DNA of 37,984 bases from a virus, in IMG/VR virus record IMGVR_UViG_3300005577_000020, positions 1-37,984 of that record; one strand, given 5' to 3'. Below, one piece after another: positions 1,727 to 37,984 of the stretch. The position numbers and the translations under genes are program-made. The notes below the pieces were generated by a model. It did not search any database and was not told the origin of the DNA. It worked only from the letters and a program-made list of their open reading frames with translations. The stretch's first letter is position 1, and every line of letters starts with the position of its first letter.

Positions 1727-1747
1727 AGCCCCACCGGGGCTTTTTTT
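1727..1747 (+). terminator. Rho-independent terminator after the helicase gene
   Basis: A 6-bp perfect stem, AGCCCC / GGGGCT with an ACC loop, is followed by a run of seven T, 24 bases after the helicase stop. It should end transcription of the rightward early operon, or act as a barrier that a phage antitermination mechanism would have to overcome to express VRR-NUC and VapE downstream. A second, weaker inverted repeat (CCTGC at 1774-1778, GCAGG at 1789-1793) lies between it and the next start and could fold near the ribosome binding site. Confidence 0.9.
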
Positions 1748-9575: not shown

Positions 9576-9587
9576 GAGGACAGGACG

Positions 9588-10007: not shown

Positions 10008-10948
10008 CGATGCCCGCCGAAGCGCCCGCTCCCGAGGCGCCGCCGCCGACAGAGCCGGCACCGGACGAGACGCCCGCGGAAGCACCGGCGGAGTCCGGCG
10101 ACACCCCGCCCGCTGCAGCCAGTGGCGAGCAGTTGACGCCGGCGGAGCCGCCGCCCGAGCGCGAGACGGCGTTATTTCGCAAGGCGCTCCGCATGCGGGA
10201 GCAGGGCGTCGCCGAGCGGAAGAAGGCGGAGGACGTCCTCAGCTCCGTGCGCAAGGAACGCGAGCAGCTACAGGCCGAGCGTGCGGAGCTGCGCGATCTG
10301 CGGAAGCTGAACGAAGCCATCGACGCCGATCCGATGGCGTTTTTCGAGCACTTCCACATCAACCCTGCCGACTTCGCTCGGCGCCTGATGAATCTGCAGG
10401 ATCCGGTGCGCGCCGACGTCGAGCAGGTGCGCAAAGAGAACGCCGCGATCAAGGCGGAGCTGCAGCGGGAGCGCGAGGAGCGCGCGGACCGCGATCTGCA
10501 GAGCAAGGTGGGCCAAGCGAAGAGCAACTTCGTGAGGTTCGTGCAGGAGCGCGACGACTACCCCGACATCGCCGACGAGGACGAGGGCGATCTCGCTGAG
10601 GTGTTCTGGGATCTCGCTTCCGAGCATCATAGGAATACGGGGAAGGTCCCCACATTCGAGATGGTCGCGGCTCACCTGCAAAAGCAGGCCGAGGCCAAGC
10701 GTGCTAGACGAGAACAGCGGCGCCAACAGCGAGGCGCGCCGCCACCCGCGAACCCCGCAGCACCTCAGCGAACAGCACAGACCGGCCGATCAGCGAACGG
10801 GCCAGGGCAGCGAGCGCCGGACACGCTCACGAACGCGGACACGACGACGAGGACGACCGCCCCGAGCGCGAATGCGACCGAGGAGGAGCTCGACGCGTGG
10901 GCGGTTCAGGAGCTCCGGAAGGCGTTCCGCAAAGACGCTGACTCCTAA
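10004..10948 (+). CDS. Capsid scaffolding protein
   Basis: A 314-residue protein that should guide procapsid assembly and then leave or be degraded. It has a Pro/Ala/Glu-rich N-terminal 50 residues, a long charged helical region from about 58 to 250 with coiled-coil character (RKEREQLQAERAELRDLRK), an internal segment ADPMAFFEHFHINPADFARR often seen in phage scaffolds, a low-complexity Gln/Arg/Ala/Thr region, and a short helical C-terminus (ELDAWAVQELRKAFRK) that would contact the coat. Directly upstream of the major capsid gene, as expected. Confidence 0.85.
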   Translation: MTMPAEAPAPEAPPPTEPAPDETPAEAPAESGDTPPAAASGEQLTPAEPPPERETALFRKALRMREQGVAERKKAEDVLSSVRKEREQLQAERAELRDLRKLNEAIDADPMAFFEHFHINPADFARRLMNLQDPVRADVEQVRKENAAIKAELQREREERADRDLQSKVGQAKSNFVRFVQERDDYPDIADEDEGDLAEVFWDLASEHHRNTGKVPTFEMVAAHLQKQAEAKRARREQRRQQRGAPPPANPAAPQRTAQTGRSANGPGQRAPDTLTNADTTTRTTAPSANATEEELDAWAVQELRKAFRKDADS

Positions 10949-10966
10949 CGCTGAACGGAGGCCATG

Positions 10967-12196
10967 ATGGCCCTCGGTAACGAAACAGTCGCAGCACTCG
11001 AGAACGTCCTCAAGACCAAGTACCACGACAAGTGCCACCTGATGGCGTACGAGGAGGATTGGTTCCTCCAGAACGTACGGAAGGATCTGAAGTTCGGCGG
11101 CAACGACTGCCGCATCTCCCTCCGCTACGGACATTCCCAGGGCGGATCGTCGACGTACACCGACGCCGACGAGGGGCAGACGTCGTCCGAATCGGCCGGC
11201 TTCTTCCTCACGCGAGCGAAGGGCTACCACCTCATCAGCATGGACGCAGAGGCCCTGCTCGCGGGCGAGGGCTCCGAGAACACCGTGCTGAACGCGGTGG
11301 ACGCGGCCATGGAGGGCGGCACCCGCATGATCGGGCATGCGCTCGCCATCGGCGTCAACGGCGACGGGACGGGAACGCGCGGCATCATCGACGCCGCGAC
11401 GACCCTCTCCGGGCCGGTGCTCAAGCTCAAGAGCGTCTCGACGATCATCAACTTCGAGCGCCAGCAGCGCTACCAGTTCGCCGATCCTGTCGCTCTCACG
11501 CTGCGCGACTCCGGCGACTTCCTCACCGTCATCGGCGTGGACCGCGACACCGGAGAGGTCACGTTCGACGGCGACCTCGACGACATCGCCGGTATCTCGG
11601 TCGGCGATCTGGTCGTCCGCAAGGGCGACTTCAAGAAGGACATCGCTGGGCTCGCGGCGTGGCTCCCGCTCGACCGGACGAACCTCGACGACCTGTTCAT
11701 GCAGCAGGATCGCTCGCTCGACAAAACGCGCCTGGCGGGCGTCATGTTCGACGGCGAGGGGAACGACAAGGCCGACACGCTGCAGCGCGCTCTCACGCGT
11801 CTGTCGCGCGAGGGCGGGAAGGACAAGAACCGCGTGGGTCTCGTCAACATCGAGACGCTCGCGGAGATCAGCATCGAACTCGGCGCCAAGGCGCACTACT
11901 ACCCCGCGGAGAGCGGCAAGGGTACGGCCGGATTCGACACGCTGATCATCAGCACGCCACGAGGCATGTTCAAGCTCGTGGGCTCGCTGCTCTGCCCGCC
12001 CGAGGAGTTCTACATCCTCGACATGTCGACCTGGGTCCTCAAGTCGATCAAGAAAGCCCCGCACATCGTCGACGACGACGGCCGCACCATCCTCCGCTTG
12101 CCGAACAGCGACGCGGTGGGCTGGCGACTGCGCTACTTTGCGCAGCTCGGCTGCGACGCGCCCGGATGGAACCTCCACGGCATCTGGGGGACCTGA
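10967..12196 (+). CDS. Major capsid protein
   Basis: A 409-residue coat protein of HK97-fold type, as judged by position after scaffold, length and pattern: an N-terminal helix (ETVAALENVLKTKY), an E-loop-like Gly/Ser/Thr stretch (GHSQGGSSTYTDADEGQ), a spine-helix region around LNAVDAAMEGGTRMIGHAL, an inserted beta domain (DSGDFLTVIGVDRDTGEVTF) and a C-terminal strand pair ending GWNLHGIWGT. The 5-base spacing from GGAGG favours ATG 10967; ATG 10964 is the alternative. The inserted domain might serve as an I-domain like that of P22 coat protein. Confidence 0.88.
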   Translation: MALGNETVAALENVLKTKYHDKCHLMAYEEDWFLQNVRKDLKFGGNDCRISLRYGHSQGGSSTYTDADEGQTSSESAGFFLTRAKGYHLISMDAEALLAGEGSENTVLNAVDAAMEGGTRMIGHALAIGVNGDGTGTRGIIDAATTLSGPVLKLKSVSTIINFERQQRYQFADPVALTLRDSGDFLTVIGVDRDTGEVTFDGDLDDIAGISVGDLVVRKGDFKKDIAGLAAWLPLDRTNLDDLFMQQDRSLDKTRLAGVMFDGEGNDKADTLQRALTRLSREGGKDKNRVGLVNIETLAEISIELGAKAHYYPAESGKGTAGFDTLIISTPRGMFKLVGSLLCPPEEFYILDMSTWVLKSIKKAPHIVDDDGRTILRLPNSDAVGWRLRYFAQLGCDAPGWNLHGIWGT

Positions 12197-12402
12197 TGAA
12201 GTCGCCCGCGGCGCTCGTCATCGGGCTCGGCAAACACGCCGACGACGAAGACGACAGCGACGGAGACGCCGTCTCCGAGGATGGCGACGAGAAGAAGGAC
12301 GCGGCGCAAGCGCTCCTCGATGCGATTGCGTCGAAAGACGCGGACGCTGTCGCGGATGCCTTCTCCACGCTCCACGCCATCTGCAACGAAGGGAAGTACT
12401 GA
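12196..12402 (+). CDS. Small acidic head-cluster protein
   Basis: A 68-residue protein with a very acidic centre (DDEDDSDGDAVSEDGDE, residues 17-33) followed by a short amphipathic helix (AAQALLDAIASKDADAVADAF). ATG 12196 overlaps the capsid stop (TGATG). Helical tail domains of this kind occur in several small phage head proteins. Function unknown. Confidence 0.75.
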   Translation: MKSPAALVIGLGKHADDEDDSDGDAVSEDGDEKKDAAQALLDAIASKDADAVADAFSTLHAICNEGKY

Positions 12403-12405
12403 TCC

Positions 12406-13104
12406 ATGGCCTACACGACGACGCCGGCGGAGGTGCTGGCCGCCGCGCGTCGTCGTGCGGACCAGGTCAACGGCACCTTTCGTGAGGACGAGGACATCCT
12501 CGCGCTCATGGACACCACGTGGGCGGAGATCTGGGAGACCGTCCTCACCGCCCAGCCCGAGCGTGCCGTCAAGAGCGTGGACCTCGAGACGGCGTCGGAC
12601 CAGGACACCTACGCGCTCGCGGACATCGTCGGTGAGAACGACGTGTGGAAGGTGAAAGACGTCGACGCGGTGGTGAGCGGTCGATCGATCAACCTCGAGC
12701 AATTCCAGTGGGAAGAGCGCAACCGCTACCAGTACGGCGGCGGGTGGAACTACGCCCGCCCACTCGCCTGGCGCATCGTCGGTGACGATCTGGTGGTGCG
12801 CCCGAAGCCGACCGGCGTCTACTCGCTCACGCTTTGGTACCACCCCGTTCCGGTCAAGTGGTCCGCGCTCGACCTCGACACCGATGTGGACACCGTCACC
12901 GGCTGGGAGGAAGCGCTCATCGTCGGCGTGGCGTGGAAGCTCGCGCTCGAGGAGGAAGACCTCGAGCTCGCCGATCGACTTGGCGCCGAGTTCCAACGCC
13001 AGTTGAGTCGCATTCTCACGTTCGGCGCGGTGCGCGTCACGGAGAAGACCGAGCAGGCGCGCGACGTGTACGCGTCCTCCATCGATGAGGATCTGCTTCC
13101 ATGA
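12406..13104 (+). CDS. Head-tail adaptor / head completion protein
   Basis: A 232-residue protein. Position right after the capsid genes and the sequence WYHPVPVKW, DTVTGWEEALIVGVAWKLALEEEDLELADRLGAEF (12895-13000) match the pattern of podophage adaptor (gp4/gp11-like) proteins: an N-terminal helical bundle, a beta insertion and a long C-terminal helix pair. It would form the ring that joins the portal to the tail hub. No exact family can be named without a profile search. The end overlaps the next gene by 4 bases. Confidence 0.75.
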   Translation: MAYTTTPAEVLAAARRRADQVNGTFREDEDILALMDTTWAEIWETVLTAQPERAVKSVDLETASDQDTYALADIVGENDVWKVKDVDAVVSGRSINLEQFQWEERNRYQYGGGWNYARPLAWRIVGDDLVVRPKPTGVYSLTLWYHPVPVKWSALDLDTDVDTVTGWEEALIVGVAWKLALEEEDLELADRLGAEFQRQLSRILTFGAVRVTEKTEQARDVYASSIDEDLLP

Positions 13105-13484
13105 TGCCTCGCACCATCCGCTACGTGGGCAGCACCGCCGTGGAGACGGTGAAAGCCATCGGCACGCGCATCGAGAAATTCAGCGAGCGGGCGCTCGACG
13201 CTCTGCAGCGGAACCTCCTCGACGCGATGCTCCCCGCCGTGGTCACACCTATCGTAGGCGGAAACCTCATTCTCGACGTGGCGTTCACGCCGTTCTCGCC
13301 GACGCCGGTGCTTCATCGGCTCGGCCGGGCGTACGTCGGCGTCATCGTCTGCGCGCCGCTCATGGTGGGCGGCTCGCACCTGGCTCCAACTTTCTGGCGC
13401 GTCGAGCAGTCGGCCGATCTCGATGCGTCGCAGGTCCAACTGGCGTGCACGGCGACGTGCACCGCACCTGTTTACGTCTTCTGA
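13101..13484 (+). CDS. Putative minor tail/virion protein
   Basis: A 127-residue protein with a helical N-terminus (VKAIGTRIEKFSERALDALQRNLLDAML) and a beta-rich C-terminus containing FTPFSPTPVLHRLGRAYVGVIV. The FxxxP..H.LGR pattern is seen in small structural proteins next to podophage nozzle genes. ATG 13101 overlaps the adaptor stop. It has two Cys near the C-terminus and no signal peptide. Probably a tail or connector component by location. Confidence 0.65.
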   Translation: MMPRTIRYVGSTAVETVKAIGTRIEKFSERALDALQRNLLDAMLPAVVTPIVGGNLILDVAFTPFSPTPVLHRLGRAYVGVIVCAPLMVGGSHLAPTFWRVEQSADLDASQVQLACTATCTAPVYVF

Positions 13485-13486
13485 CC

Positions 13487-13528
13487 ACACCACGCTGATC
13501 CCACCACGCTGATCCCACCCCGCTGACC
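13487..13528. repeat. Three tandem 14-bp repeats before the tail hub gene
   Basis: Three back-to-back copies of a 14-base unit, CCACCACGCTGATC with 1-2 differences per copy, fill the 44-base gap between the two genes and end at the ATG of the 1037-residue gene. The repeat replaces the usual ribosome binding site: no purine-rich SD is present before 13529. It may have arisen by slippage, or may affect translation of this large gene. Confidence 0.85.
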
Positions 13529-16500
13529 ATGCCCGAGCGCGCCAACATTCAGATCGACTTCTCTGGCGGCGTCGACCAGCGCACCGACGTAAAGCACGTG
13601 GTGCCGGGCAAGCTCACGTCACTGACGAACGGCGTGTTCGACAAGGCGGGCAGCATCCGCAAGCGACGCGGCTTCACCGCCCTGTCGCGCGCCACGTTCG
13701 CCGCCGGCACCATCCTCGCCGCCACGCGCCTCACGACGTTCGGCTCCGATCTCGTCATGACGGACGGCGACTCGCTCTACTCGTACTCGCCCGCCGTCGA
13801 TAAGTGGGCGTACAAGGATCAGGTCAGTCAGGCGGTCGCGACGCGCCAGCCCATCGCGCATGGCTCGACGACGTACTACAGCCCCGACGTCGCATACGGA
13901 AACGGCTACGTCGTCATTGCGTGGCTCGAGAACTACGACGGAACCAACAAGCGCGGCGACGTCAAGGCCACGGTCGTCGAGGTCGCGACGGGCGCGCAGG
14001 TGCTCTCCGGCGTCTCGCTCGCGACCGGGCAGACGAATCACATCCCGCGCGTCGTCGTCGTCGGTAACACCGCGGTGATCGTCTACGGCACGAGCGCCGG
14101 TCAGATCAAAGCGCGCACGCTCGATCTCACGAGCCCCAACGCATTCGCGGCGGCGGTGAATCTCGCGACCGACTCAACGGCAACAGCGACCAAGTTTCAG
14201 CTCGACGCGACCGCTCTCACCGGCGCGTTCGCCATCATCTACGTCAACAGCCAGACCGGCGCGAACGCCAAGCTGAATGTGAAGACATTCGACCCCGCAG
14301 CGCTCGGCGCGGCGCTCGCATCGCGCACGCTCGCGGAGACGGCGGATCCGGCAAGCTGGGCGCTGTCGATCCGCGGCGTGACCGGCGAGCGACTCTGGAT
14401 TGCGCACGGCGCGCTCGTGACGCTGACCCAAACGGTCAAGGCCACCGCGCTGAATACGACCACGCTGGCCGACTCCACCGCGCCGTTCACCGTGGTGACG
14501 GTGGCGAGCATGAGCGGATTCGCCACCAGCTACCCCATCGGCATCGAGCGCGTGGACTCGGCCAATGCGGTGGTCACGTGGGGCGAGCTCGACTCCACGA
14601 GCAACGTGCGCGTGGCCAAGTGGCGCGCCGTCTCGTCGGGGGGCGCGCTCCTCGGGCCGAGCGCGCACTACGTCAAGCGCATGGCCTGGCTCAGCAAGCC
14701 ATTCATGGCCGGCTCGCGCTGCTACGCCGTGTGCGGCCACGCCGCGAGCGTCACCTCGGGCACCGAATCCACGACGTTCCTCGTCGACCTCACGATCAGC
14801 GACACGGGAAGCGCCACCGTGCTCGCGCGCCCGGTCACGACCATCGCTCCCCGCCGCTCGTCGACCACGCCCGTCACCGACGTGCGCGCGAACCTCTGCA
14901 ACGTCGCGGCGACAGGCTCGGCCTACGTGACCGCCACGGTGGTGCGTAAGAGCGCTGCGGGGAAGCTCGGGCTCGACCTCGCTACGCTCGACTTCGCGAC
15001 GCGGGCGCGGCACATGCCCGCCGAGCTCGGCGGCTCGCTCCACATCTCCGGCGGCGTGCCGGCGATCTACGACGGCGGGCGCGTCATCGAGAATGCTGCG
15101 CTCCTGATTCCCGAGACGCCGTACGGCTTCTCCCAGGTCACCGGGTCGGGCGGCGTCGCGAATGGCGCATACAGCTACGTCGTCACGTTCAGTAGGTTCG
15201 ATTTGCAGGGACAGAGGCAACGGAGCGCCCCGAGCGCCGCCCTCGCCGTCACCATCAACGGCGTCAACGTCTCGTCCAATACGTCGCAGTTCATCCTCGC
15301 GCCGCTACCCATGACGCTCCTGCAGGATGCGGAGAGCGGATTCGAGCCGCGCTGGTACATCGAGGTGTGGCGCACGACGGCGAGCGGCACGGTCTTCTTC
15401 CGAGTGCCGGACTCCAAGATCCAGTGGAGTGGGACCGGTCCGATCACCGCGTCGCCCGTGCTCAACGATCCGACGCTCGACACCATCGCCATCTACGACA
15501 CGGCGAGCGACGCCGATCTGACGGGCGCGGAATTCATCTACACGACGGGCGGCAACCTTGAGAACCGCTGTCCGCCGAGCGCGTCGATCGTGGCGATGCA
15601 CAAGGAACGCGTGTGGCTCGCCGGCACCGACGATCCGAAGGTGCTCTGGTACTCCCAGGCGTACGCGTTCGGCGAGGCGCCCGGCTTCCACGACGCGCTG
15701 ACCATCACCATCGAGGAGGGCGGACCCATCACCGCGCTCGCCTCGCTCGACGGCCACCTCATCGTCTTCAAGCGCGACCGCATCTTCTTCATCGACGGCG
15801 ACGGACCGGGGCTCGCCGGCGGCGCCGGCTTCTCCACGCCGCAGCGCATCTCGGTCGATCTCGGGTGCATCGACGCCAACAGCGTCGCCGTTGTGCCCGA
15901 TGGCGTCGTCTTCCAGAGCACCGCGGGCCTGTACCTGCTCGACCGCTCGCTACAGGTCGTCTACCTATCCGGCCCCGTCGAGGACACGCTCGCGGATAAC
16001 CCCATCGTCACGAGCGCGGTCGTGCACGAGTCGCAGTTCCAAGTGCGCGTCACGTGCCGGGCGAGCGTCGGAAACACCGGCGTGATCCTCGTCTACGACT
16101 ACCTCGCGAAGCAGTGGAGCACGTTTCAGGTGTACGACTCCGTGGCGGCGCAGGGATCGTCTGCCATCGCCGGCGCGTGCAACCACAACGGCGTGTACAA
16201 GTGGGTCGCGCCGAATGGAAGCGCGCATCAGGAGACCGCGGGCGCGCACACCGATGACGGGACGTGGGTCATCCTGTCGCTCGAGACGGCCTGGCTGAAA
16301 GTCGGCGGCCTGCAGGGCTGGCAGCGCGCGTGGTCGGTGCAGCCGCTCGCTGACCGACTGTCGCCGCACGACTTCACGATCCAGATCGCGTCCGACTACT
16401 CGACCGGATACGCGCAGACGTCGGCGTGGACGGACGACGTGCTCGACAACATGACGGCCGAGGAGCTGCGGATTCAGGTGAAGCAGCAGAAGTGCCAGTC

Positions 16501-16642
16501 GATCCGATTCGCTCTCTACGACTCCGCGCCCACCGGCGGCGGCTCGGTCGGCACGGGCCAGGGGTTCTCACTCGCGGGGCTGCTGCTCGAGGCGGCGGTG
16601 CTTCGCAAGGCCAAGCGGCTGCCCGCCGCGCAGAGGGGGTGA
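13529..16642 (+). CDS. Tail hub/nozzle protein (beta-propeller type)
   Basis: A 1037-residue structural protein. The N-terminus FSGGVDQRTDVKHVVPGKL followed by SIRKRRGF is the usual opening of podophage nozzle or stabilisation proteins (P22 gp10 / T7 gp12-like), which list the tail channel ring. It continues with many beta-strand repeats that suggest a propeller. The segment ITALASLDGHLIVFKRDRIF with FIDGDGPG and VVFQSTAGLYLLDRSLQVVYL is characteristic of this group. It should form the lower tail tube carrying the receptor-binding proteins. It is larger than most nozzle proteins, suggesting an inserted domain. No signal peptide. Confidence 0.85.
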   Translation: MPERANIQIDFSGGVDQRTDVKHVVPGKLTSLTNGVFDKAGSIRKRRGFTALSRATFAAGTILAATRLTTFGSDLVMTDGDSLYSYSPAVDKWAYKDQVSQAVATRQPIAHGSTTYYSPDVAYGNGYVVIAWLENYDGTNKRGDVKATVVEVATGAQVLSGVSLATGQTNHIPRVVVVGNTAVIVYGTSAGQIKARTLDLTSPNAFAAAVNLATDSTATATKFQLDATALTGAFAIIYVNSQTGANAKLNVKTFDPAALGAALASRTLAETADPASWALSIRGVTGERLWIAHGALVTLTQTVKATALNTTTLADSTAPFTVVTVASMSGFATSYPIGIERVDSANAVVTWGELDSTSNVRVAKWRAVSSGGALLGPSAHYVKRMAWLSKPFMAGSRCYAVCGHAASVTSGTESTTFLVDLTISDTGSATVLARPVTTIAPRRSSTTPVTDVRANLCNVAATGSAYVTATVVRKSAAGKLGLDLATLDFATRARHMPAELGGSLHISGGVPAIYDGGRVIENAALLIPETPYGFSQVTGSGGVANGAYSYVVTFSRFDLQGQRQRSAPSAALAVTINGVNVSSNTSQFILAPLPMTLLQDAESGFEPRWYIEVWRTTASGTVFFRVPDSKIQWSGTGPITASPVLNDPTLDTIAIYDTASDADLTGAEFIYTTGGNLENRCPPSASIVAMHKERVWLAGTDDPKVLWYSQAYAFGEAPGFHDALTITIEEGGPITALASLDGHLIVFKRDRIFFIDGDGPGLAGGAGFSTPQRISVDLGCIDANSVAVVPDGVVFQSTAGLYLLDRSLQVVYLSGPVEDTLADNPIVTSAVVHESQFQVRVTCRASVGNTGVILVYDYLAKQWSTFQVYDSVAAQGSSAIAGACNHNGVYKWVAPNGSAHQETAGAHTDDGTWVILSLETAWLKVGGLQGWQRAWSVQPLADRLSPHDFTIQIASDYSTGYAQTSAWTDDVLDNMTAEELRIQVKQQKCQSIRFALYDSAPTGGGSVGTGQGFSLAGLLLEAAVLRKAKRLPAAQRG

Positions 16643-16645
16643 CGC

Positions 16646-17491
16646 ATGCCCGTTCGTGACGACAGCTACGAAGTACTGACCGGGCGCGCCTCGGGCTACG
16701 GCGTTTACGATCCGCGCGATCACTACGAATGGGGCGGATACGCCGGCGGTGCGGACAACCAGCGCGCCGGTATGTGGAACCAGGCTCAGGGCGCCCAGCA
16801 GCGCCAGGGTCCGACCATAGACCAGCGGCAGAGCGACGCCGACTTCGTGAATGCGCTGCAGGCGCGCCAGAATCAAGAATACCTGCAGGGCTACCTGGGC
16901 GGCGTGATGACCGGCCAGACGGCGACGCCCGCACAGCAGCAGCTACGCGCGCAGACGGCGCAGGCGCAGGGCCTGCAGCGATCGGCGGGCGCGAGCGCGC
17001 GCGGATTCGGCGCCGTCGCCGGCGCGCCGCGCGATGCGATGCTGCGCGGCCAGCAGATCGGACTCGTGGGCGGGCAGCAGATGCAGGTACAGCGCGCCAA
17101 CGACATGGCGTCGGCTCGCGACCAGTACGCCGATCTCGCCGCTGCGATGCGCGAGCAGGATTTGCGCTCGCGAGGGCTGCAGCAGCAAGGCGCGTGGGAC
17201 CAGGCGAAGCTGTCGGACGAGCAGCGCGCGCAGAACGACGCGATGGCGCGGTTCTACCTGAACGAGCGGTACAAGGTTGGCGGCGATCAGCTCGCGGCGA
17301 ACGAAGGGTACGAGCACCAGCAGGGCGCGAACGCCGCGGGCGAGTCCAACGTGAATTGGGCGCTGTTGCAGCAGAAGGACGCCAGCGATGACCGCGGCAC
17401 CGCGGCTGCGAACAAGATGACCGGTGACACGCTGTCGGTCGGCACGTCGATGGCCGGCGAGGACGACGACGACGACAGGCGGAGGGGCTGA
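16646..17491 (+). CDS. Internal virion/ejection protein A (Gln-rich, paralogue of next gene)
   Basis: A 281-residue, Gln/Ala/Arg-rich, helical protein, acidic at the C-terminus. AGAGGGGG lies 9 bases before the ATG. It resembles the next gene in three places: HYEWGGYAGGAD versus YYWGGSEGGAD; DADFVNALQARQNQEYL versus DAELARALAERGNQQVV; and RAQNDAMARFY versus RARNDAMAQFY. Both also end in an acidic stretch. It is likely carried inside the capsid and ejected with DNA, as in P22-type (gp7/gp16/gp20) or T7-type cores, inferred from position, composition and size. Confidence 0.7.
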   Translation: MPVRDDSYEVLTGRASGYGVYDPRDHYEWGGYAGGADNQRAGMWNQAQGAQQRQGPTIDQRQSDADFVNALQARQNQEYLQGYLGGVMTGQTATPAQQQLRAQTAQAQGLQRSAGASARGFGAVAGAPRDAMLRGQQIGLVGGQQMQVQRANDMASARDQYADLAAAMREQDLRSRGLQQQGAWDQAKLSDEQRAQNDAMARFYLNERYKVGGDQLAANEGYEHQQGANAAGESNVNWALLQQKDASDDRGTAAANKMTGDTLSVGTSMAGEDDDDDRRRG

Positions 17492-18402
17492 TGGCGCAGA
17501 CGACGCTGAACGACCCGGCCGATCCGGAGCTCGAGAACGACTGGCGCAAGCGCGATCCGAATGCGCCGAACAGCGGCCAGCTGGATCCGCTCGACCGAAC
17601 GAATTTCACCGGTGAGCCAGGCGCGCGCGGCGGAACGCAGTCAATCAGCCGCAGTAACTACTATTGGGGCGGCTCCGAAGGCGGCGCGGACCGCGACGTC
17701 GAGGGCCTCCGCTATCAGAACGACATCGCCCAGCAGCGGGGCGCGGTGCAGATCGACACCCGCCGGGCCGATGCCGAGCTCGCGCGCGCCCTTGCCGAGC
17801 GTGGCAACCAGCAGGTCGTCCTGTCGGGCTATCGCCAGCAGCTCACCGGGCGCGGGCCGAGCGCTGCGCAGTGGGGCGGCCAAGCGGCGCTCGAGGCGGC
17901 GCTGACCCAGCAGGCCGCGCAGACGGGCCAGGCGCCGAATGCGTATCTGGCGGCGGGCCAGGCGGGCGGCCAGGCGATGGGAGCCTCGAATGCGCAATAC
18001 GCGGGCGCGCGCGGCGCGGAGGTCGCGGCGGCGGCGCACGGGTTCAGCGGGGTGGCATCGTCGCAGCGCGTCGGCGATCTGATGAGTGCGGGCATGTCGC
18101 AGGAGCAGGCGCTGCATCAGGCGCAGCTCGAGGCGGCGCAGCGTGCGCGCAACGACGCGATGGCGCAGTTCTACACCGCGCAGGAGAACGACATCAGGCG
18201 CCAGCAGCTTGCCGCGATGGGCGCGTACGAGGCGCAGCGCGACGCGAATGCCGCCGTCGCTGGCGGGGACTGGCAGCGGCGTCAGTCGCGCGCGAATGAT
18301 CGGGCGAATGCGGCATACGTCAATACCGCCGACGTGCTGGGCAAGGTGATGACAATGGGCGCGGTGAGCATGAAGAAGGACACTGACGACGATGGCCGGT
18401 GA
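17491..18402 (+). CDS. Internal virion/ejection protein B (paralogue of previous gene)
   Basis: A 303-residue, Ala/Gln/Arg-rich helical protein sharing blocks with the preceding gene (WGG..GGAD near the N-terminus, the central Gln-rich helices and RARNDAMAQFY near residue 214). It starts at ATG 17491 overlapping the upstream stop (TGATG) and ends 11 bases inside the next gene. It is probably the product of a tandem duplication and forms part of the ejected protein core. No membrane segment is obvious. Confidence 0.7.
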   Translation: MAQTTLNDPADPELENDWRKRDPNAPNSGQLDPLDRTNFTGEPGARGGTQSISRSNYYWGGSEGGADRDVEGLRYQNDIAQQRGAVQIDTRRADAELARALAERGNQQVVLSGYRQQLTGRGPSAAQWGGQAALEAALTQQAAQTGQAPNAYLAAGQAGGQAMGASNAQYAGARGAEVAAAAHGFSGVASSQRVGDLMSAGMSQEQALHQAQLEAAQRARNDAMAQFYTAQENDIRRQQLAAMGAYEAQRDANAAVAGGDWQRRQSRANDRANAAYVNTADVLGKVMTMGAVSMKKDTDDDGR

Positions 18403-20233
18403 ACCGCTGACTCCCGAGGAGCTTGCGCGCCTGTCGGCCGTGTCCGGCCCGCCCAGGCCGCCGGGCATGATCTATTACGAGCAGCAGCCGATCGTGCGCT
18501 TCGGCCCCGAGCGCGGGAGCGGCGCGCAGGTGTTCACGCCGCCGGTGCCGCCACCCGTCGCCGCGCCCCGCCAGCCCCTGTCGTTCGTCCGCGAGCAGCC
18601 GCCGGCCATCGAGCCCGACGCGTTTGCCGCGAGCCGTGGGGCTGCCCAGCAGAACCGCGCGCGCAAAGTCGCCGAGGCCGCCGCCCCGCCGCTCGAGGTC
18701 GCAGCGCACGCCGCGATGCAGCCCGAGCCCCCGCCGCCCGCCACCCCGCCGCCGACGCCGCCGGCCGATGCCGCTGCACCCGAAGCGCCCGGCGGCGGCC
18801 CCGTCGCCGCTCCCATCGCTCCGCTACAGGTCATCCCTGGCGGGTGGGCGCCGCATCACCGCGTCGGGCGGCTCGAGGTCGACGAGGGGACGAAAGAGGA
18901 GTACGTCGGCGCCGACGCGCTCCACGAGCAGGCGATCCAGCAGAAGACGGACGCCGATCAGGCGAGGTACGACGCCGAGGCCAAGCAGATCGTCGACACG
19001 GAACGACGCGTGCGCGCGATCGACAACGCCGTGGCTCGCAACGAGAGTGACCGCGCCGCGCAGATCCAATCGCAGCAGATCAAGCTCGAGGAGCTGACCG
19101 ACAAGGTCAACAAGGCACCCGAGATCGACTCCGGGCGTTTCTGGGCGAAGAAGAGCACCGGCGCCAAGCTCTTCGCGATCCTCGGCGTCGCCCTCGGCGG
19201 CTTCGCCGCCGGCATGCGCGGTGGGCAGAACCAGGCGATCGACCTCTGGGAAAAGGAGATGGATCGCGATCTGGAAGCGCAGAAGGCGCAGGCCGCGAAC
19301 GCCGGCAACAAGCTCGCGCAGCAGCGTGGCCTCCTCGGGCAGATGAAAGAGAATTTCAACGACACGCGCCAGGCCGAGGCAGCGGCGAAGGTGGCCTACC
19401 TCGGGCGTGCCGAGCTGCAGCTCAAGGCGCTCGCGGCGCAGTCGCAGAGCCCCGAAGTGCAGGCGCGCGCTACCGACTTGCTCGCGCAGCTGCAGGAGCG
19501 ACGCGCCGCGCGACAGCTCGAATTCGACAAGCTCGCGCAGGGCAACCTAACGGAGGTGTACCGGCCTCCCACGGTCGTCGGCGGTGGTGGTCCGAAGCCC
19601 GATCCGGAGAAAGAGAAGCTGTTCGTGCCGACCGGCCCGAACGGCGCGGGCTACTACGCGCGCACCGAAGATGAGGCGAAGAAGCATCGCGCCGCGCGCG
19701 AGGGAGCCGCCGAGCTCGAGGAGGTCATCAACAAGGCGCTCGCGATCCGCGCGAAGACGGGCGCGCTCGAGCGCGGCGTCGCGAAGGCGGGCCTCTACGA
19801 CACGGAAGACATGTCCTCGCTGCAGAGCCTCCAGACCCAAGCGGGAACGGCGCTCAATAAGATGAAGGGGATGGGGACGTGGGACGCTGGATCGTCGAAA
19901 GCGGCGGACGAGCAGGTCGGTAAGCTCCTGAACGTCACCGGCAACCCAGAGGCCGCGGCGCGGTCGCTGCTCGGTATCACGCGTCACTCGCTCGTCGCCG
20001 CAGAGCGGTCGCAGGCGGGGCAGGGCGCGCGCGCCGCCATCGCGGTTGACCAGCAGGGGCGCCCGGTGCAGGTCACGCTGGGCCAAGCGTCCATGGCGTC
20101 GCCCAAGTCGCAGATGCCGCCCGGGTTCAAGCCGCTACAGGGCGAGGCGGTGGAGAACGTGCCGTCGCCGCAGAAGGCCGCGGAGCCGGAGCTCGTGGTC
20201 GGGCCGGCGGCGAAGAAAAAGCGGGGGAAGTAA
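18392..20233 (+). CDS. Internal virion/ejection protein C with membrane-like segment
   Basis: A 613-residue protein. Residues 1-150 are Pro/Ala/Glu-rich and look disordered. Residues 165-255 form a charged coiled coil. A Gly/Ala-rich hydrophobic stretch, LFAILGVALGGFAAGM, follows near residue 265. Another long helical region with LEAQKAQAANAGNKLAQQRG and Ala/Arg repeats comes next, and the tail is Lys-rich (KKKRGK). The combination of long helices with one short hydrophobic segment is typical of ejection proteins that help DNA cross the cell envelope. Not assigned to a named family. Confidence 0.7.
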   Translation: MAGEPLTPEELARLSAVSGPPRPPGMIYYEQQPIVRFGPERGSGAQVFTPPVPPPVAAPRQPLSFVREQPPAIEPDAFAASRGAAQQNRARKVAEAAAPPLEVAAHAAMQPEPPPPATPPPTPPADAAAPEAPGGGPVAAPIAPLQVIPGGWAPHHRVGRLEVDEGTKEEYVGADALHEQAIQQKTDADQARYDAEAKQIVDTERRVRAIDNAVARNESDRAAQIQSQQIKLEELTDKVNKAPEIDSGRFWAKKSTGAKLFAILGVALGGFAAGMRGGQNQAIDLWEKEMDRDLEAQKAQAANAGNKLAQQRGLLGQMKENFNDTRQAEAAAKVAYLGRAELQLKALAAQSQSPEVQARATDLLAQLQERRAARQLEFDKLAQGNLTEVYRPPTVVGGGGPKPDPEKEKLFVPTGPNGAGYYARTEDEAKKHRAAREGAAELEEVINKALAIRAKTGALERGVAKAGLYDTEDMSSLQSLQTQAGTALNKMKGMGTWDAGSSKAADEQVGKLLNVTGNPEAAARSLLGITRHSLVAAERSQAGQGARAAIAVDQQGRPVQVTLGQASMASPKSQMPPGFKPLQGEAVENVPSPQKAAEPELVVGPAAKKKRGK

Positions 20234-28873: not shown

Positions 28874-29086
28874 CTACTCCCCCTCCTTCCCGCCGTGCGC
28901 GGCGTTGCGGCGCGATGCAGCCTTGGCCGCGACACTCACCCGCAGCGCCTCGGGGTCGCGTGTCGCCCAGCGATTGCCGCACGCGCGACATGCCAAGCCG
29001 GCGCTCTCTCCGTGAACACCGGTACCCGGATATGCGGGCGCGTACAGATACGTGTCGGACGAACCGCAGTTCTTGCACTTGATCAC
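28874..29086 (-). CDS. Small zinc-ribbon protein
   Basis: A 70-residue protein with two CXXC pairs (CKNC near residue 4, CRAC near 34), a classical zinc ribbon, and a basic C-terminal tail. GGAGAC lies 6 bases before the GTG at 29086, which overlaps the upstream stop by 4 bases. Function unknown, probably nucleic-acid or protein binding. Confidence 0.75.
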   Translation of the reverse strand: MIKCKNCGSSDTYLYAPAYPGTGVHGESAGLACRACGNRWATRDPEALRVSVAAKAASRRNAAHGGKEGE

Positions 29087-30765
29087 GGCTTGTCTCCTTC
29101 GCGCTCGGCGAGGGCGGCGATACGCGTCGCGCAGTTCGCGGCGGACTCGCGATGCTCGAACGCGTAGCAGAGCGCCGTAACGCGGCACACTTGCTCCGCC
29201 TCCCGCAGCGCCTCCACCCTCCCAGCGCGTCGCTCAGCGGCGAGGATGGGCGCAACCTTCCTGACGACGTCTTGGCTGATCCACGTCACGTTTGGGTTAT
29301 GCGCACGCACCACCGCGAGCGCGCGGTCGTACTCCTCGACGTCGGGCGCGGCCCCCGGAGGGGAGGAAGAAGTGCCGGGAACGACAGGCGCCACCGCCCG
29401 GCTCGGCTCGTCGACCGTGTTAGGGCCCGTCTGCGCCCCCGCCATCTGTTTGCCCGTGCCCTTGCAGACTGGACACCGGCTCGTCACGTACACCGCCGGC
29501 ACCGGACCACCAGGCACGAGCGGCTTGGGTTGAGGGCCGGGAACGCGTCCCGTTCCCCCGCACCGCGCGCACCTCTCCTCGGCCGGCGGGGCGGGCTGCT
29601 TCGCATGACCCTCGACGTGCTCGGATCGAAGCAGACCGCACCAGCATCGGGTGTTCGGCAGTTCCAACGTGCAGGTGTCGCGCGCGTGACGCTGCCAGTA
29701 CCACCTCACACCGTCGAAGCCTGACGGAACCGGCATCAATCCGCACGCGCACTGCGCCTCGGGCTTATCCGCCTCCTTCACCTGCGGGGCGGCGCCGCCG
29801 CGGGCGCGGATGCGAGCGGCCAGTTCGTGCGCGGTCTCACACGCAGCGTCGTACGCGACGTCGGAGCCATCTGTTGCACGGCCCACGAGGCGGTCGCACT
29901 CCTTCGCGCATTCCTCCCGCTCGCGCGCCACCGCCTCGGCGATGCGGCGGTCGACGTCGGTACGCATCTTCTGGCGTGCTTCGAAGGACGCCTGCTCGAC
30001 GGTCGCCACAACATCTTGGCAATGCTTCCGCAACCGCTCGATCTCCTCGCGATACGCCGAGCACTGCGCGTCTCCTGTCGCGAGGAGGGCGGCGGCGAGG
30101 GATTCGGCGTCACGCAGCCGCCTGCAAAGGACGTCGACCGTGCGGCCCTGCTCGATCGTCAGCTCGCGGTACGCATCGAGCGACTTCTTCATCTCCTCCT
30201 CCGCCGCACCGCGCGCGGGCCACAACTTCACGAGCGCGTCACCGATCGCGCGAGCCAGCAAAGATGCCTGGTCGTGCATGGCAACGTTGTTGCTCTCGAC
30301 CGACCACACCTTGTGCTCGCCAGCGATCCAGACTGAACCGCGCTCGCCGACGCGGCTGTACGTCACCTCCGGCACGCCCGCGGGTGGGGTGAGACGAGCG
30401 CGCATCCATCGAATCGCGGTGTCGACGGCACCCTCGCTCTGCGACGGCTCGCCGGGCACTTCGTGCATGATGAAGTTCGCCAGCTGCTCCACCTGCTGCT
30501 CCAGGTCGCCCGCGGGCGGGGTGGCGAGGCGGTCCCGCATGCCGATGATGAACCCGCGCAGCGAGACGCCGTCACCAACCGCCAAACCAAGGTCTTCGCG
30601 AATGGCGCGTACCAACCACTGGTGACGCTCGACCTCGTCCCGCGCCTCGTCCCGCTGCCTCACCAGCGCCCGCACCGCCTCGTGGTACTCGCGCAGCACC
30701 CGCGCCAGTTCCACCTCCAGGCGGTGGATACTGGCGCGGCAGTCGATGTGACCGACGTCGACCAT
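29083..30765 (-). CDS. Large coiled-coil/zinc-finger protein of the recombination operon
   Basis: A 560-residue protein. Residues 1-100 form a coiled-coil start (LEVELARVLREYHEAVRALV). A long mostly helical middle follows with several Cys, then a Cys-rich part (about 340-440) with CACG, CWCG and two DnaJ-type CXXCXGXG units (CARCGGTG, CPVCKGTG), and a final helical domain. The DnaJ-type units bind zinc and often contact proteins or nucleic acid. ATG 30765 shares its A with the upstream stop. No enzyme motif is visible, and the fold is unknown. It seems unusual in size for this operon, where all other genes of unknown function are short. Confidence 0.75.
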   Translation of the reverse strand: MVDVGHIDCRASIHRLEVELARVLREYHEAVRALVRQRDEARDEVERHQWLVRAIREDLGLAVGDGVSLRGFIIGMRDRLATPPAGDLEQQVEQLANFIMHEVPGEPSQSEGAVDTAIRWMRARLTPPAGVPEVTYSRVGERGSVWIAGEHKVWSVESNNVAMHDQASLLARAIGDALVKLWPARGAAEEEMKKSLDAYRELTIEQGRTVDVLCRRLRDAESLAAALLATGDAQCSAYREEIERLRKHCQDVVATVEQASFEARQKMRTDVDRRIAEAVAREREECAKECDRLVGRATDGSDVAYDAACETAHELAARIRARGGAAPQVKEADKPEAQCACGLMPVPSGFDGVRWYWQRHARDTCTLELPNTRCWCGLLRSEHVEGHAKQPAPPAEERCARCGGTGRVPGPQPKPLVPGGPVPAVYVTSRCPVCKGTGKQMAGAQTGPNTVDEPSRAVAPVVPGTSSSPPGAAPDVEEYDRALAVVRAHNPNVTWISQDVVRKVAPILAAERRAGRVEALREAEQVCRVTALCYAFEHRESAANCATRIAALAEREGDKP

Positions 30766-34265: not shown

Positions 34266-34547
34266 GTGAGACCGCTATGTGTCGCAGTGCTCGCCGCGCT
34301 CGCCGGGTGTCCCGATCCGCCGCCATACGCGCAGTTTCGCGGCCCCGATGGGCGCTACGGATGGATCGTCATCGACTGCCGACATCACGGCGGATGCCTG
34401 GAGAAGGCTGATCGCTACTGTCCAGGGGGCTACCGTGTCGCCGATGACGAAGGCGGCGACGTCTCAGCGTCGCACGCGCCGCTCAACTCGCACACCATGA
34501 TGGTGAAGTGCAAAGAGGGGCGCCGGCGAAACCCGGAAGAGCCCTAG
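34266..34547 (+). CDS. Small lipoprotein of the immunity region
   Basis: A 93-residue protein with a short N-terminal region and a clear lipobox (LAALAGC, Cys14), likely exported and lipidated. The mature part has WIVIDCRHHGGCLEKADRYCPGGY with paired Cys. GTG 34266 is preferred, with GTG 34251 possible. It lies on the plus strand between the leftward operon and the repressor gene, which places it beside the operators but outside both early operons. A lysogen-expressed surface or superinfection-exclusion role is inference; known phage lipoproteins such as T5 Llp act this way. Confidence 0.65.
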   Translation: MRPLCVAVLAALAGCPDPPPYAQFRGPDGRYGWIVIDCRHHGGCLEKADRYCPGGYRVADDEGGDVSASHAPLNSHTMMVKCKEGRRRNPEEP

Positions 34548-35158
34548 CCGGCCTTGCGGCGCGCGAGCATGCCAGAGCGCTTGCTCTTCGGCTTCGCACG
34601 CGGCGCCTCGCGCGGCGTCGCCCGTGGAGTCGGCGGGCTGTCTTGGCGGGCGAGCTCCACGATCCGCTTGCGCCGGTCAGCGTCGCTCAAAAGCAGGCGC
34701 TGCTGACTTGTCGTGAGCTGCGTGGCGCGGATCGTCTCGCCCTCGGCGCGGAACATCTCGAACCACCAGCCGGCCGGCTTGTCCTTCAACGCGGGGTCGC
34801 CCCACGCGAGGACCGGCTCGAGCTGCGCTTCAGGCATTCCGAGCAGGCGAGCAGCCAGCGTCGCTCGAGCTCGCTCGGGTAGCGGATCGGTGGCTTCGGA
34901 TTCACCGCTCGCGACGCCCATCTGCGCGAAGAGCTGATCGACACCGATGCCGCGAGCGACCATCGCGATCTTGGTCGCCGTGGGGTAGCTGATCCCTGTC
35001 TTCCCCGCGAGGAACTTGGAGACCGTCTGCTGTCCCACGCCGAGGCGTGCGCCAACGACTGTTTGCACAAGGTCTTCGCGCTGCGCGTACTCGCGGATGA
35101 CCGCCCGAAGAGCTTCGTTCTGCTCGTCGGTGAAATTCTGCGGCTTGCCTCTCGGCAC
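34544..35158 (-). CDS. Phage repressor (XRE-family HTH)
   Basis: A 204-residue protein. The XRE helix-turn-helix is at about residues 25-60 (LGVGQQTVSKFLAGKTGISY, then PTATKIAMVARGIGV), followed by linker and a helical C-terminal part with no obvious LexA-type Ser-Lys catalytic pair, so RecA-stimulated cleavage is not indicated. The start is uncertain: GTG 35158 is used because upstream starts (GTG 35185, ATG 35254) would place both operators inside the coding region. Its 3' end overlaps the convergent lipoprotein gene by 4 bases. It is the likely keeper of lysogeny. Confidence 0.8.
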   Translation of the reverse strand: MPRGKPQNFTDEQNEALRAVIREYAQREDLVQTVVGARLGVGQQTVSKFLAGKTGISYPTATKIAMVARGIGVDQLFAQMGVASGESEATDPLPERARATLAARLLGMPEAQLEPVLAWGDPALKDKPAGWWFEMFRAEGETIRATQLTTSQQRLLLSDADRRKRIVELARQDSPPTPRATPREAPRAKPKSKRSGMLARRKAG

Positions 35159-35217: not shown

Positions 35218-35246
35218 TTGACGACTCAATAGTACGCGCGTATGCG
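35218..35246 (+). promoter_or_regulatory. Rightward early promoter (PR-like), probably leaderless
   Basis: TTGACG at 35218-35223 and TATGCG at 35241-35246, 17 bases apart, with the cro ATG at 35253 where transcription should begin. No SD lies before the ATG. The -10 sits inside operator OR1. The -35 is close to consensus and the -10 is weak, so the call is moderate. Confidence 0.45.
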
Positions 35247-35252: not shown

Positions 35253-35516
35253 ATGGCACGTTCACGCCGAAAGACTCCGCGCGCGGTTCCGATGACCGAT
35301 GGCCTGCGCCGCCTCCGCGAGATCGCGGAGACGATTTCCCAGGCGGAAATCGCACGACGCACGGAGGTGTCGCAGCAGACGGTCTCTTGCTACTTGCGCC
35401 GCGTTGCGCGCCCTGACGAGATCGTACGCGAGCGCATGGAGCACGAATTCGGCATCCCGCGGACATCGTGGCGCACTCCCGAGGAGGAGCGACACGCGTC
35501 CGGGCGGGCGGCGTGA
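35253..35516 (+). CDS. Cro-like HTH regulator
   Basis: An 87-residue basic protein with an HTH (ISQAEIARRTEVSQQTVSCYL, residues about 28-48). ATG 35253 directly follows operator OR1. It is divergent from the repressor gene and is the first gene of the rightward operon, the usual place of a Cro protein that shuts off the repressor and sets the lytic path. Identity is inferred from position and HTH, not from sequence homology to lambda Cro. Confidence 0.75.
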   Translation: MARSRRKTPRAVPMTDGLRRLREIAETISQAEIARRTEVSQQTVSCYLRRVARPDEIVRERMEHEFGIPRTSWRTPEEERHASGRAA

Positions 35517-35526
35517 GGGGGCCATC

Positions 35527-35613
35527 GTGGCTCATCGTGAAACAAGTGCAGTGTGCAAGCAACGGGTGACGTTCGTTCACTGGTGGGCGTGCCGCCACCG
35601 GGGTGACGCGTGA
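35527..35613 (+). CDS. 28-residue ORF between cro and excisionase
   Basis: GTG 35527 follows AGGGGGG by 5 bases, and the stop overlaps the next start (GTGA). The peptide MAHRETSAVCKQRVTFVHWW, then CRHRGDA, is Cys/His/Trp-rich. The good ribosome site and the overlap are the only evidence, so it may be a real small regulator or only a translational link. Confidence 0.35.
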   Translation: MAHRETSAVCKQRVTFVHWWACRHRGDA

Positions 35614-35996
35614 CTCCGCCGCCGCGCGTTTTCACGGCGCAGGACATCGCGGCGCTCGTGCAGGTGAGCGAGTCGCACGCGTACGCGATCATGCGGCAGA
35701 TGCCGCACCGCAAGGTGGGGACGTGTATCCGGGTTCTCGAGGCTGATTTCTGGGCGTGGTGGGAGGCGGAGAAGACATGCGGATCTACAAGCGCGGAAAG
35801 TACTGGTGGTGCGCGTGGACTGAAGGCGGGCTCACTCTCCGGCGTTCTACCCGGTGCACCACGCGCCGGGCGGCGGAGATCGTCAGCGCGCGCTGGGAGC
35901 GCGAGCGAGCCGATCCGGCCTATCACGCCGCGAACACCGCGACGCTCGGCGCCGAGGCCCGCACCTTCCTCGACGAATGCAAAGCGGACGGCCTGA
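35610..35996 (+). CDS. Excisionase-like HTH protein overlapping integrase
   Basis: A 128-residue reading frame. Residues 1-55 (VFTAQDIAALVQVSESHAYAIM, RKVGTCIRVLEADFWAWWE) have the winged-HTH look of AlpA/HTH_17-type excisionases, which bend attachment-site DNA for Int. The remaining 73 residues are low-complexity Ser/Arg/Pro and run in another frame over the first 220 bases of integrase, so they may be a passenger tail. The functional part probably ends near residue 60. GTG 35610 overlaps the 28-residue ORF. Confidence 0.7.
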   Translation: MTPPPRVFTAQDIAALVQVSESHAYAIMRQMPHRKVGTCIRVLEADFWAWWEAEKTCGSTSAESTGGARGLKAGSLSGVLPGAPRAGRRRSSARAGSASEPIRPITPRTPRRSAPRPAPSSTNAKRTA

Positions 35997-37000
35997 GGCC
36001 GGGGACGCTCAACATGTACGACTGCAAGGTGGCCCACGTCTGTCGCTTGCTGGGCGCCAATACGCGCACTGCGGCCATCACCCCGCCGATGGTGATCGCG
36101 TACATCGCGCAGCGGCGCGTCGAGGGCGCGAGCGATTCCACCATCTATAAGGAGTGGGTTGCGCTCCGCGGCATCCTCAACAGCGCACGCCACCGCGGTC
36201 GCTACGCGCGCGATCCGGGCGCTCTGAAGCCGCCGCGGTTCTCGCCGTCGTACGAGCCGCGCCAGCGCTTCCTGTCGTGGGCCGAGCTCGGGCTCCTCTG
36301 TCTCTCCGGCGTGCTGCCCTTGCACCGTGCGCAGGCGGTCGCGTTCATCGTCGCCACTGGCGCCAGGCGCGCCGAGTTCCGCGCGGCGCAGGCGCACGAC
36401 GTCACCGATCGGACCGTCCACCTGCACGGGACGAAGACCGACTCGAGCAACCGCGTCATTCCGGTGCCGGCCACCTACCAGGCGCTCCTCGCGTTCGCCG
36501 GCCCGCCGCCGTTCGATCCGTGGACGAATGCGCGGCGCGATCTCGAGGAAGCATGCGCACGCGCCGGCGTCGAGCCGGTCACGTTCAACGATTTGCGCCG
36601 CACCTTCGCATCGCTCTTGGTGCAAGAGGGCGTGGCGCCTCACCTCGTGGGGAAACTGATGGGACACACGACGAGCGCGATGGTCGAAAGGGTCTATGGG
36701 CGGCAGTCGACGGAGGCGTTGGCGCGTCTGATCGATGGCCCATTGGCGTACCAGACGCCAGCACTCCAGGACGCACCGGACGGACCCAGTGAAGACGATT
36801 CACCGGTAAATCGTGGGCCGACCGGGACTCGAACCCGGGACCTACGGATTAAAAGGCCGGCGTCACCCGCTGCAATGCCCGCAGAAACCGGCGATATGGG
36901 CGCCGGCGTACCACCAGCGTACCAGGCGCCTGCACCCTGGCCATGGGGTCCGGCGCGCAAATTCCTGGTGGAGAGCGGGATGGTTCGGAGGGTGGCTTGA
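35777..37000 (+). CDS. int: Tyrosine integrase with attP inside its 3' end
   Basis: A 407-residue tyrosine recombinase. Residues 1-45 form an arm-binding beta domain (MRIYKRGKYWWCAW), 55-145 the core-binding SAM-like domain, and 165-320 the catalytic domain: R197 (ATGARRAE), K220 (GTKTDSS), then FNDLRRT with R274 and N271 where most members have His, H297 (MGHTT) and Y307. ATG 35777 has GGAGGCGGAG upstream. DNA for residues about 346-360 is the tRNA-Lys half, so the spurious-looking GPTGTRTRDLRIKR is encoded by attP. After integration, residues beyond about 360 would come from host DNA. Confidence 0.93.
   Translation: MRIYKRGKYWWCAWTEGGLTLRRSTRCTTRRAAEIVSARWERERADPAYHAANTATLGAEARTFLDECKADGLRPGTLNMYDCKVAHVCRLLGANTRTAAITPPMVIAYIAQRRVEGASDSTIYKEWVALRGILNSARHRGRYARDPGALKPPRFSPSYEPRQRFLSWAELGLLCLSGVLPLHRAQAVAFIVATGARRAEFRAAQAHDVTDRTVHLHGTKTDSSNRVIPVPATYQALLAFAGPPPFDPWTNARRDLEEACARAGVEPVTFNDLRRTFASLLVQEGVAPHLVGKLMGHTTSAMVERVYGRQSTEALARLIDGPLAYQTPALQDAPDGPSEDDSPVNRGPTGTRTRDLRIKRPASPAAMPAETGDMGAGVPPAYQAPAPWPWGPARKFLVESGMVRRVA
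36814..36855 (-). other. attP: attP core: 3' half of tRNA-Lys (UUU)
   Basis: On the minus strand this stretch reads as the anticodon loop CTTTTAA (anticodon UUU), the 3' anticodon strand TCCGT, variable loop, the complete T-arm (CCGGG/TTCGAGT/CCCGG), the 3' acceptor strand and the discriminator A. The 5' anticodon strand no longer pairs, so the identity starts at the loop. It is 42 bases of a tRNA, not a working tRNA. Site-specific integration into a host tRNA-Lys gene, restoring its 3' end, is the established mechanism for this arrangement. Confidence 0.88.
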
Positions 37001-37308
37001 GCGCCCGTGTCGACGCGCGCCCGCTCGGCGTGGACGCGCCCACGGCGTATCGGACGTACCTACGGTTCCGCGCACGCGACAACGCCGAGCGGCGGATCAC
37101 CATTGCCGCGACGGCGCATTTCTTCGATCGCCGCCAGCGCGGTCAGCGGTGCTCGTCATGCGGTGGCACGTCGACGCGTTTGCTCGCGCTTGCGTGCGCT
37201 GACCCGCTGGCGGCCGACGAGAACCCCGACACCACGCGCCTCTGGACGGGCCTCTGTCGTGGATGCGTCGAGGCGGTCGTCGACGCTGCTGAGGAGATGT
37301 GGCCGTGA
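36997..37308 (+). CDS. Zinc-ribbon protein after integrase
   Basis: A 103-residue protein with CSSCGGTS (about 54-60) and CRGC (about 88-91) pairs forming a zinc ribbon, and an N-terminal helical part. TTG 36997 is preferred: GGAGGG lies 4-5 bases upstream and the TTGA overlaps the integrase stop. GTG 37009 is the alternative. It overlaps the DnaA-like gene by 4 bases. It is the first gene after attP, so it would be cut off from the early promoter in the prophage. Confidence 0.75.
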   Translation: MSARVDARPLGVDAPTAYRTYLRFRARDNAERRITIAATAHFFDRRQRGQRCSSCGGTSTRLLALACADPLAADENPDTTRLWTGLCRGCVEAVVDAAEEMWP

Positions 37309-37583
37309 CCGCCGCCGCATCGTGGTTCCCCGGCACCATTCCGCCGGCGCCCATCCGCGCGCAGCTCGACGACATCGCCGCCGACGTCTGCGCCTCGCAC
37401 CGCGTGACGCTGGCCGAGCTGTTCGGCCGCGATCGCCACGCGGACATCGTCGCCGCCCGCAGGGAGTTCGCGGTCAGGGGGCGCGCCACGGGCGCCAGCT
37501 ACCCGGTGCTGGGGCGGTACATGGGGCGGGACCATTCTACGGTCCAGGCGCTGGTGAAGGGGCTCGGGTGGCACCGTGCGTGA
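37305..37583 (+). CDS. Stand-alone DnaA domain IV-like DNA-binding protein
   Basis: A 92-residue protein. Residues 25-90 match DnaA domain IV: helices ADIVAARREF, a middle SYPVLGRYM, and the DnaA-box-reading signature GRDHSTVQALVKGL (compare GRDHTTVLHA in DnaA). There is no ATPase domain. GAGGAG stands 8 bases before GTG 37305. Single DnaA-IV domains occur in phages, where they may bind DnaA-box-like sites to start phage or block host replication. Just before HNH and the helicase, on the replication side of attP. Confidence 0.85.
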   Translation: MTAAASWFPGTIPPAPIRAQLDDIAADVCASHRVTLAELFGRDRHADIVAARREFAVRGRATGASYPVLGRYMGRDHSTVQALVKGLGWHRA

Positions 37584-37984
37584 GGCAGACGCCCGGCGGT
37601 TCTGGCGCAGGGTCCGCAAGGGATATAGCTGCTGGGAGTGGACCGGGGCGCGGAACCAAAAGGGGCGCCGCGGCTACGGTCGCATCACGATCGGGCGGAA
37701 GGCCGATGGGACTCGGCGGGCCTGGCTGGCGCATCGCGTAGCGTGGCAACTCGCATACGGTCCGATCCCGGACGGCCTTTTCGTCTGCCACCACTGCGAC
37801 AACCCGGCATGCGTGCGGCCGGACCACCTATTCCTAGGTGACCAGGCCGCCAACATGTCGGATTGCGCGCGAAAGGGTCGGGCGCGTGGCCCGTCGCTAC
37901 GCGGCACACGCAACCCGAACGCGTCGTATGGCGACGACGTGGTCGCACGCGTGCGGGCGCTCGCGGCGGCCGGCGTACCTCGCG
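37576..37984 (+). CDS. HNH endonuclease, N-terminal part (continues at 1)
   Basis: GTG 37576 overlaps the DnaA-like stop. The protein has the HNH_3 pattern: WEWTGARNQKGRRGYGRI, AHRVAW, then CHHCDNPACVRPDHL with H72/H73, N76 and H84, and three Cys that can bind zinc. The frame is open at the window end and continues in the repeat copy at base 1 to a stop at 201-203 (163 residues in all). HNH enzymes near the packaging or replication genes can nick phage DNA or act as homing enzymes; here it sits in the replication operon. Confidence 0.93.
   Translation, partial: MREADARRFWRRVRKGYSCWEWTGARNQKGRRGYGRITIGRKADGTRRAWLAHRVAWQLAYGPIPDGLFVCHHCDNPACVRPDHLFLGDQAANMSDCARKGRARGPSLRGTRNPNASYGDDVVARVRALAAAGVPR
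37865..37984. repeat. Direct terminal repeat, right copy
   Basis: Identical to bases 1-120. It contains the HNH coding frame, whose continuation past the window end is found at 121-203. Removing one copy gives a 37,864-base circle. Confidence 0.97.

Follow-up and report, generated by a model that had tools for sequence, protein, structure and literature searches.

The attP of the phage in the window, a stretch of 37,984 nt analysed at its full length, lies inside the phage's own integrase gene (int), within a single rightward early unit that has cro and the excisionase-like gene on one side of it and the replication genes on the other. We consider it fairly probable that integration at tRNA-Lys splits this early unit and that the replication genes await excision. 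Judged from gene order, the split of the operon by attP is real and recurrent, being found in the window and its relative G186, in the prophage G147 and in the myxobacterial phage Mx8. The system would be a phage version of the excision-coupled expression known from Tn916, placed on top of the published attP-in-int design of Mx8.

The window record closes into a circle of 37,864 bp via a terminal direct repeat of 120 nt (1-120, identical to 37865-37984; no strand). The attP core was located at 36814-36855 (minus strand), inside the int reading frame (35777-37000) and past the catalytic tyrosine. It corresponds to the 42-nt 3' half of a tRNA-Lys(UUU), from the anticodon loop, where identity to the tRNA stops, to base 73. 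When 84,980 species genomes were searched for exact copies, all 42 bases were matched in four intact tRNA-Lys(UUU) genes and nowhere else. These belong to four Polyangiaceae MAGs, one of them labelled only as Myxococcales, and the core matches name a member of the Polyangiaceae as the likely host. A single copy of the core is present in the circular record and no complete tRNA was found in the window, which argues that the core is attP rather than attL or attR. It is flanked by two arm-like direct repeats of 19 nt on the plus strand, the left one (GCGTACCAGACGCCAGCAC) at 36746-36764 and the right one (GCGTACCAGGCGCCTGCAC) at 36917-36935, which are 89% identical and spaced 171 apart, compared with 178 for the equivalent pair in G186. 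The possibility of a tRNA relic that is not an attP was ruled out because the core lies beside int in two phages, arm-like repeats are present, and relatives found as prophages use corresponding tRNA segments. An Rfam search found nothing. Taken together, the 42 bases are best read as a true attP crossover core, at which the tyrosine integrase encoded by the phage recombines with the Polyangiaceae tRNA-Lys(UUU) gene. The preliminary description had placed both a tRNA-Lys(UUU) 3' half of 42 bases and attP inside int, and both placements agree with the exact match to a host-type tRNA and with the single core of the circular record.

The int gene (35777-37000, plus strand) encodes a tyrosine recombinase of 407 aa (PF00589, 1.3e-12; phrog_1, 1.6e-47) whose reading frame runs through attP. 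Its GC3 is 0.87 in the body compared with 0.54-0.66 in the tail, which lacks the third-position GC bias of the body. Upstream, an excisionase-like HTH_17 reading frame (35610-35996, plus strand; PF12728, 7.4e-4, below its cut-off) overlaps the int start by about 220 bases, and an overlap also occurs in L002, in L003 and between uoi and int of Mx8. Homologues of the window int were identified in 41 of 184 Polyangiales genomes. Many of them adjoin an antisense tRNA-Phe, -Met, -Lys, -Arg or -His gene, and several of the elements carry a matching core of 44-47 bp at their far end. Where the integrase reading frame enters the tRNA, 21 of 23 homologues share one frame and have their stop at a common position in the D arm (e.g., G011, G132, G009, G146, G277 and G283), indicating that the antisense strand of the tRNA commonly encodes the integrase tail; the window int reads its core in another frame. 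Mx8-type integrases likewise read into tRNA-Asp or tmRNA. Among the other elements examined, an Mx8-type int in G090 was dismissed as a phage int since it sits in an island of host genes, and G013, a promising candidate for a prophage of the window phage because its int homologue lies at tRNA-Lys, was set aside since the genes inside the second core copy run the opposite way. A first profile scan of genome contigs with the int alignment gave no confirmed match. An integrase of the window int family was also observed in a 10-kb element between tRNA-Phe cores (G238:C288, about 8478-18627) with all genes on one strand; the N-termini of its proteins resemble a terminase subunit and a primase, and it may be a phage satellite.

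Regarding the early region, a CI-like repressor (34544-35158, minus strand; weak matches to HTH_31/HTH_3 and a repressor PHROG) is divergent from a Cro-like HTH protein (35253-35516, plus strand, with a second start at 35292; PF01381), which is 44% identical to the Cro-like protein of G086. Between them lies a candidate rightward early promoter, TTGACG-17-TATGCG (35218-35246, plus strand; consensus match only). Past attP, the first gene encodes a zinc-ribbon-like protein (36997-37308, possible start at 36943; a gene call with no family match), followed by a DnaA domain IV-like protein (37305-37583; Bac_DnaA_C, PF08299, 3.9e-9), an HNH endonuclease that continues to base 192 across the circle join (37576-37984; PF13392, 2.6e-15), a 60-aa protein (229-411; a gene call) with a 4-base overlap with the next gene, and an SF2 helicase (408-1703; PF04851/PF00271; phrog_16, 3.1e-78). 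From cro through the excisionase-like gene and int to the helicase, all these genes share the plus strand, with overlaps of 4-8 bases at most joins. Directly after the helicase, an intrinsic terminator was recognized at 1727-1747 (plus strand), AGCCCC-ACC-GGGGCT-TTTTTTT, a GC-rich hairpin with a perfect 6-bp stem and a run of seven T directly after it. It contains the only run of at least six T on the plus strand of the genome and separates the helicase from the genes, also on the plus strand, for a VRR-NUC/Holliday-resolvase-like nuclease (1800-2132; phrog_93, phrog_5702), a VapE-like replicative helicase/primase (2349-3884; PF05272, 6.9e-79) and the small terminase subunit, the first late gene (3918-4292; phrog_4102, 1e-19). 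As the fold alone has a z of -1.8, the case for the terminator rests on the perfect stem and the T7 run, unique on this strand.

A sigma-70 consensus scan, which could overlook promoters in a host of 68% GC, gave no strong promoter match between attP and the helicase. It returned one weak match, TTAAAA-16-TGCAAT (36849-36876, plus strand; 8 of 12 consensus positions), which starts in the core and is of a strength reached by 28 matches on the plus strand of the circle. The early unit probably ends after the helicase, at the terminator, unless it is antiterminated. With the terminator in front of them, VapE and the late genes would need antitermination or another promoter, and the stretch from the early promoter to VapE would not form one simple unit. 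The preliminary description had seen a tightly packed rightward series of genes with no promoter between them; the strand, the order and the mostly small overlaps hold, and so does the lack of a strong match as far as the helicase, but the terminator had been missed and a weak match is present at 36849. Its further claim that VapE and the late genes also hang on the early promoter is probably wrong in part, as these genes, given the terminator that precedes them, may not depend on it directly. The anatomy it described is right; its functional claim is plausible, but reaches too far in taking in VapE and the late genes.

Given the gene order of the window, integration at this attP would necessarily place the zinc-ribbon-like, DnaA-like, HNH and helicase genes at the prophage end opposite to cro, the excisionase-like gene and int. 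No prophage of the window phage itself was found when int, helicase, VapE, terminase and the G186 portal were searched in Polyangiales/Polyangia genomes; the attL and attR sites seen in these genomes belong to relatives. One such relative is a prophage of 41,416 bp in a closed Polyangiales chromosome of 12.24 Mb (G147), with related portal, helicase, nuclease and structural genes. Its 46-bp core, the 3' half of a tRNA-Arg, occurs only at the two prophage ends and lies inside int at one of them. The order in this prophage is attL, helicase and nuclease genes, late genes, leftward genes and CI, then cro and onward to int with attR. The promoter and the genes that would depend on it thus sit at opposite ends of the integrated element, a geometry predicted for the window and seen directly in G147. 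The int product of G147 would be 493 aa in the circle compared with 463 aa in the prophage, and the circle form would end about 42 bases before the first gene past attP. No promoter-like match was found by the sigma-70 consensus scan in the first kb inside attL. G147 shares with the window the layout of cro, int with attP and downstream genes, as well as related portal and other structural proteins; it differs in an integrase of another group and in a tRNA-Arg that points in the opposite direction, so a different integration module accompanies the same layout here. The search for prophages with this int, proposed in the preliminary description, thus yielded none of the window phage but a relative in which the split is visible, and its placement of the replication genes at the far prophage end agrees with that relative and follows from the Mx8 map.

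The 42-base core recurs unchanged in another IMG/VR phage, G186 (L003), just downstream of an int whose product is about 42-45% identical to that of the window. In G186, int, attP and the downstream genes as far as terminase and portal lie on one strand. This phage shares with the window the cro-to-downstream-gene layout and related portal and other structural proteins; unlike the window, its int ends some 40 bases short of the core, and G186 yielded no helicase homologue. The position and function of the core are therefore conserved and the overlap with the reading frame is not. Scans of viral contigs with the DnaA-like, VapE and portal proteins returned nothing carrying the attP region.

On this anatomy, the lysogen would keep cro, the excisionase-like gene and int at one end, reading out through the antisense tRNA, and the zinc-ribbon-like, DnaA-like, HNH and helicase genes at the other end, where they would lack a phage early promoter. 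Upon loss of CI, cro, the excisionase-like gene and int would be made first and the prophage would excise; only in the circle could the early transcript reach the helicase, so that replication would start after excision. The early unit would probably end at 1727-1747, with VapE and the late genes served by antitermination or another promoter, and integration would also change the integrase C-terminus, as in Mx8. It is plausible that the replication genes are quiet while the phage is integrated and become active once it excises. The points that weigh against the claim in its full form include the terminator at 1727-1747, the host tRNA promoter of G147, which reads toward the replication genes, the weak match at 36849, which integration would leave on the side of the replication genes, and the recombination genes of the leftward unit (Sak4-like and exonuclease), whose promoter remains with them in the prophage.

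A different account is module exchange: a cassette of int and attP would have been inserted between cro and the replication genes, which would carry a promoter of their own, either repressed or constitutive (for instance at 36849-36876, or one that departs from the consensus), so that integration is irrelevant to their expression. It is consistent with close relatives that lack int at this place, such as G086, in which cro is followed directly by replication genes with no int between, and the helicase operons without int in G082, G104, G110 and G148, as well as with G185, G121 and G011, which carry int at a different place, and with the single 8/12 promoter-like match at the core edge. However, integrases that are not homologous and tRNAs that differ accompany the same layout in window/G186, G147 and Mx8, the genes are tightly packed across the join, the promoter-like match is weak, its strand holding 28 of this kind, and G147 shows none in the first kb inside attL. 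We judge module exchange to be rather unlikely.

It is also improbable that attP lies in int for the sake of integrase control, by a swap of the C-terminus that changes activity as in Mx8 (PMC6070905), with the operon split having no regulatory role. The precedent of Mx8, the fixed frame in which most tRNA-entering homologues read the tRNA and the two lengths of the G147 integrase are in its favour, but the window int reads the core in another frame with a tail devoid of coding bias and the G186 int stops short of the core, so it is the gene order, and not a C-terminal swap, that is conserved here. The two effects are compatible with each other. Transcription from the host could instead enter at attL and drive or limit the replication genes, with the terminator insulating VapE and the late genes in the manner of T1 of Tn916 (PMC11658703). 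The tRNA-Arg gene of the G147 host, with its promoter, points straight into the replication genes, so such entry could occur there, and the window terminator sits about 2.7 kb in from the attP side. In the window, however, the tRNA runs antisense and remains with the int end, and we assign this account a low probability.

The reading in which excision reconnects the early unit has its closest anatomical parallel in Mx8 (Myxococcus; Myxoctovirus), where attP is annotated inside intP and the order uoi, int with attP, p13, a DnaC-like p20 and terminase follows on one strand (D86464). In Mx8, integration swaps the integrase C-terminus and thereby alters its activity (PMC6070905). Both phages have attP in int, an excisionase gene immediately ahead of int and overlapping it, same-strand genes past attP and a myxobacterial host; in contrast to the window, Mx8 has imm on the same strand and a different gene as attB, and tblastn of the window proteins against Mx8, including its Int, gave no match at E 1e-3. 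In Tn916, the split was shown to couple expression to excision, and a terminator insulator (T1) and an antiterminator are present (PMC11658703); by analogy, the terminator at 1727 may insulate VapE and the late genes. The Tn916 family resembles the window in having the main promoter and the processing/transfer genes at opposite integrated ends, rejoined by excision, with terminators inside the unit, but these are conjugative elements that are not homologous to it, and expression is proven there and inferred here. Integration-dependent immunity in mycobacteriophage BPs, in which attP lies inside the repressor gene and integration changes gene expression (PMC4557955), is alike in having attP within a gene; the gene is the repressor in BPs, whereas in the window it is int and the downstream operon is affected. 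No phage operon described as split by attP was found in the literature searched, which does not prove that none has been described.

If the proposal is true, the order of induction, excision and then replication, would be set by DNA topology and not by a regulator. It would forbid in-place replication, which in other phages harms hosts and drives lateral transduction, and would carry the Tn916 principle into tailed phages. That several myxobacterial phage lineages with unrelated or distantly related integrases arrived independently at an excise-first design, with attP in int between cro and the replication genes and a prophage physically unable to make its replication proteins or to replicate in place before it leaves the chromosome, is suggested only tentatively. 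Mx8 and Myxococcus xanthus form a genetically tractable system.

Other features of the genome include a protein of 560 aa (29083-30765, minus strand) that ends the leftward operon and has no Pfam or PHROG match, and two stretches of 66 nt (17192-17257 and 18109-18174), 77% identical, in neighbouring structural genes. A contig from another sample (L214; IMGVR_UViG_3300005617_000059) encodes a portal protein 99% identical to that of the window, so this phage, or one nearly identical to it, has been recovered twice.
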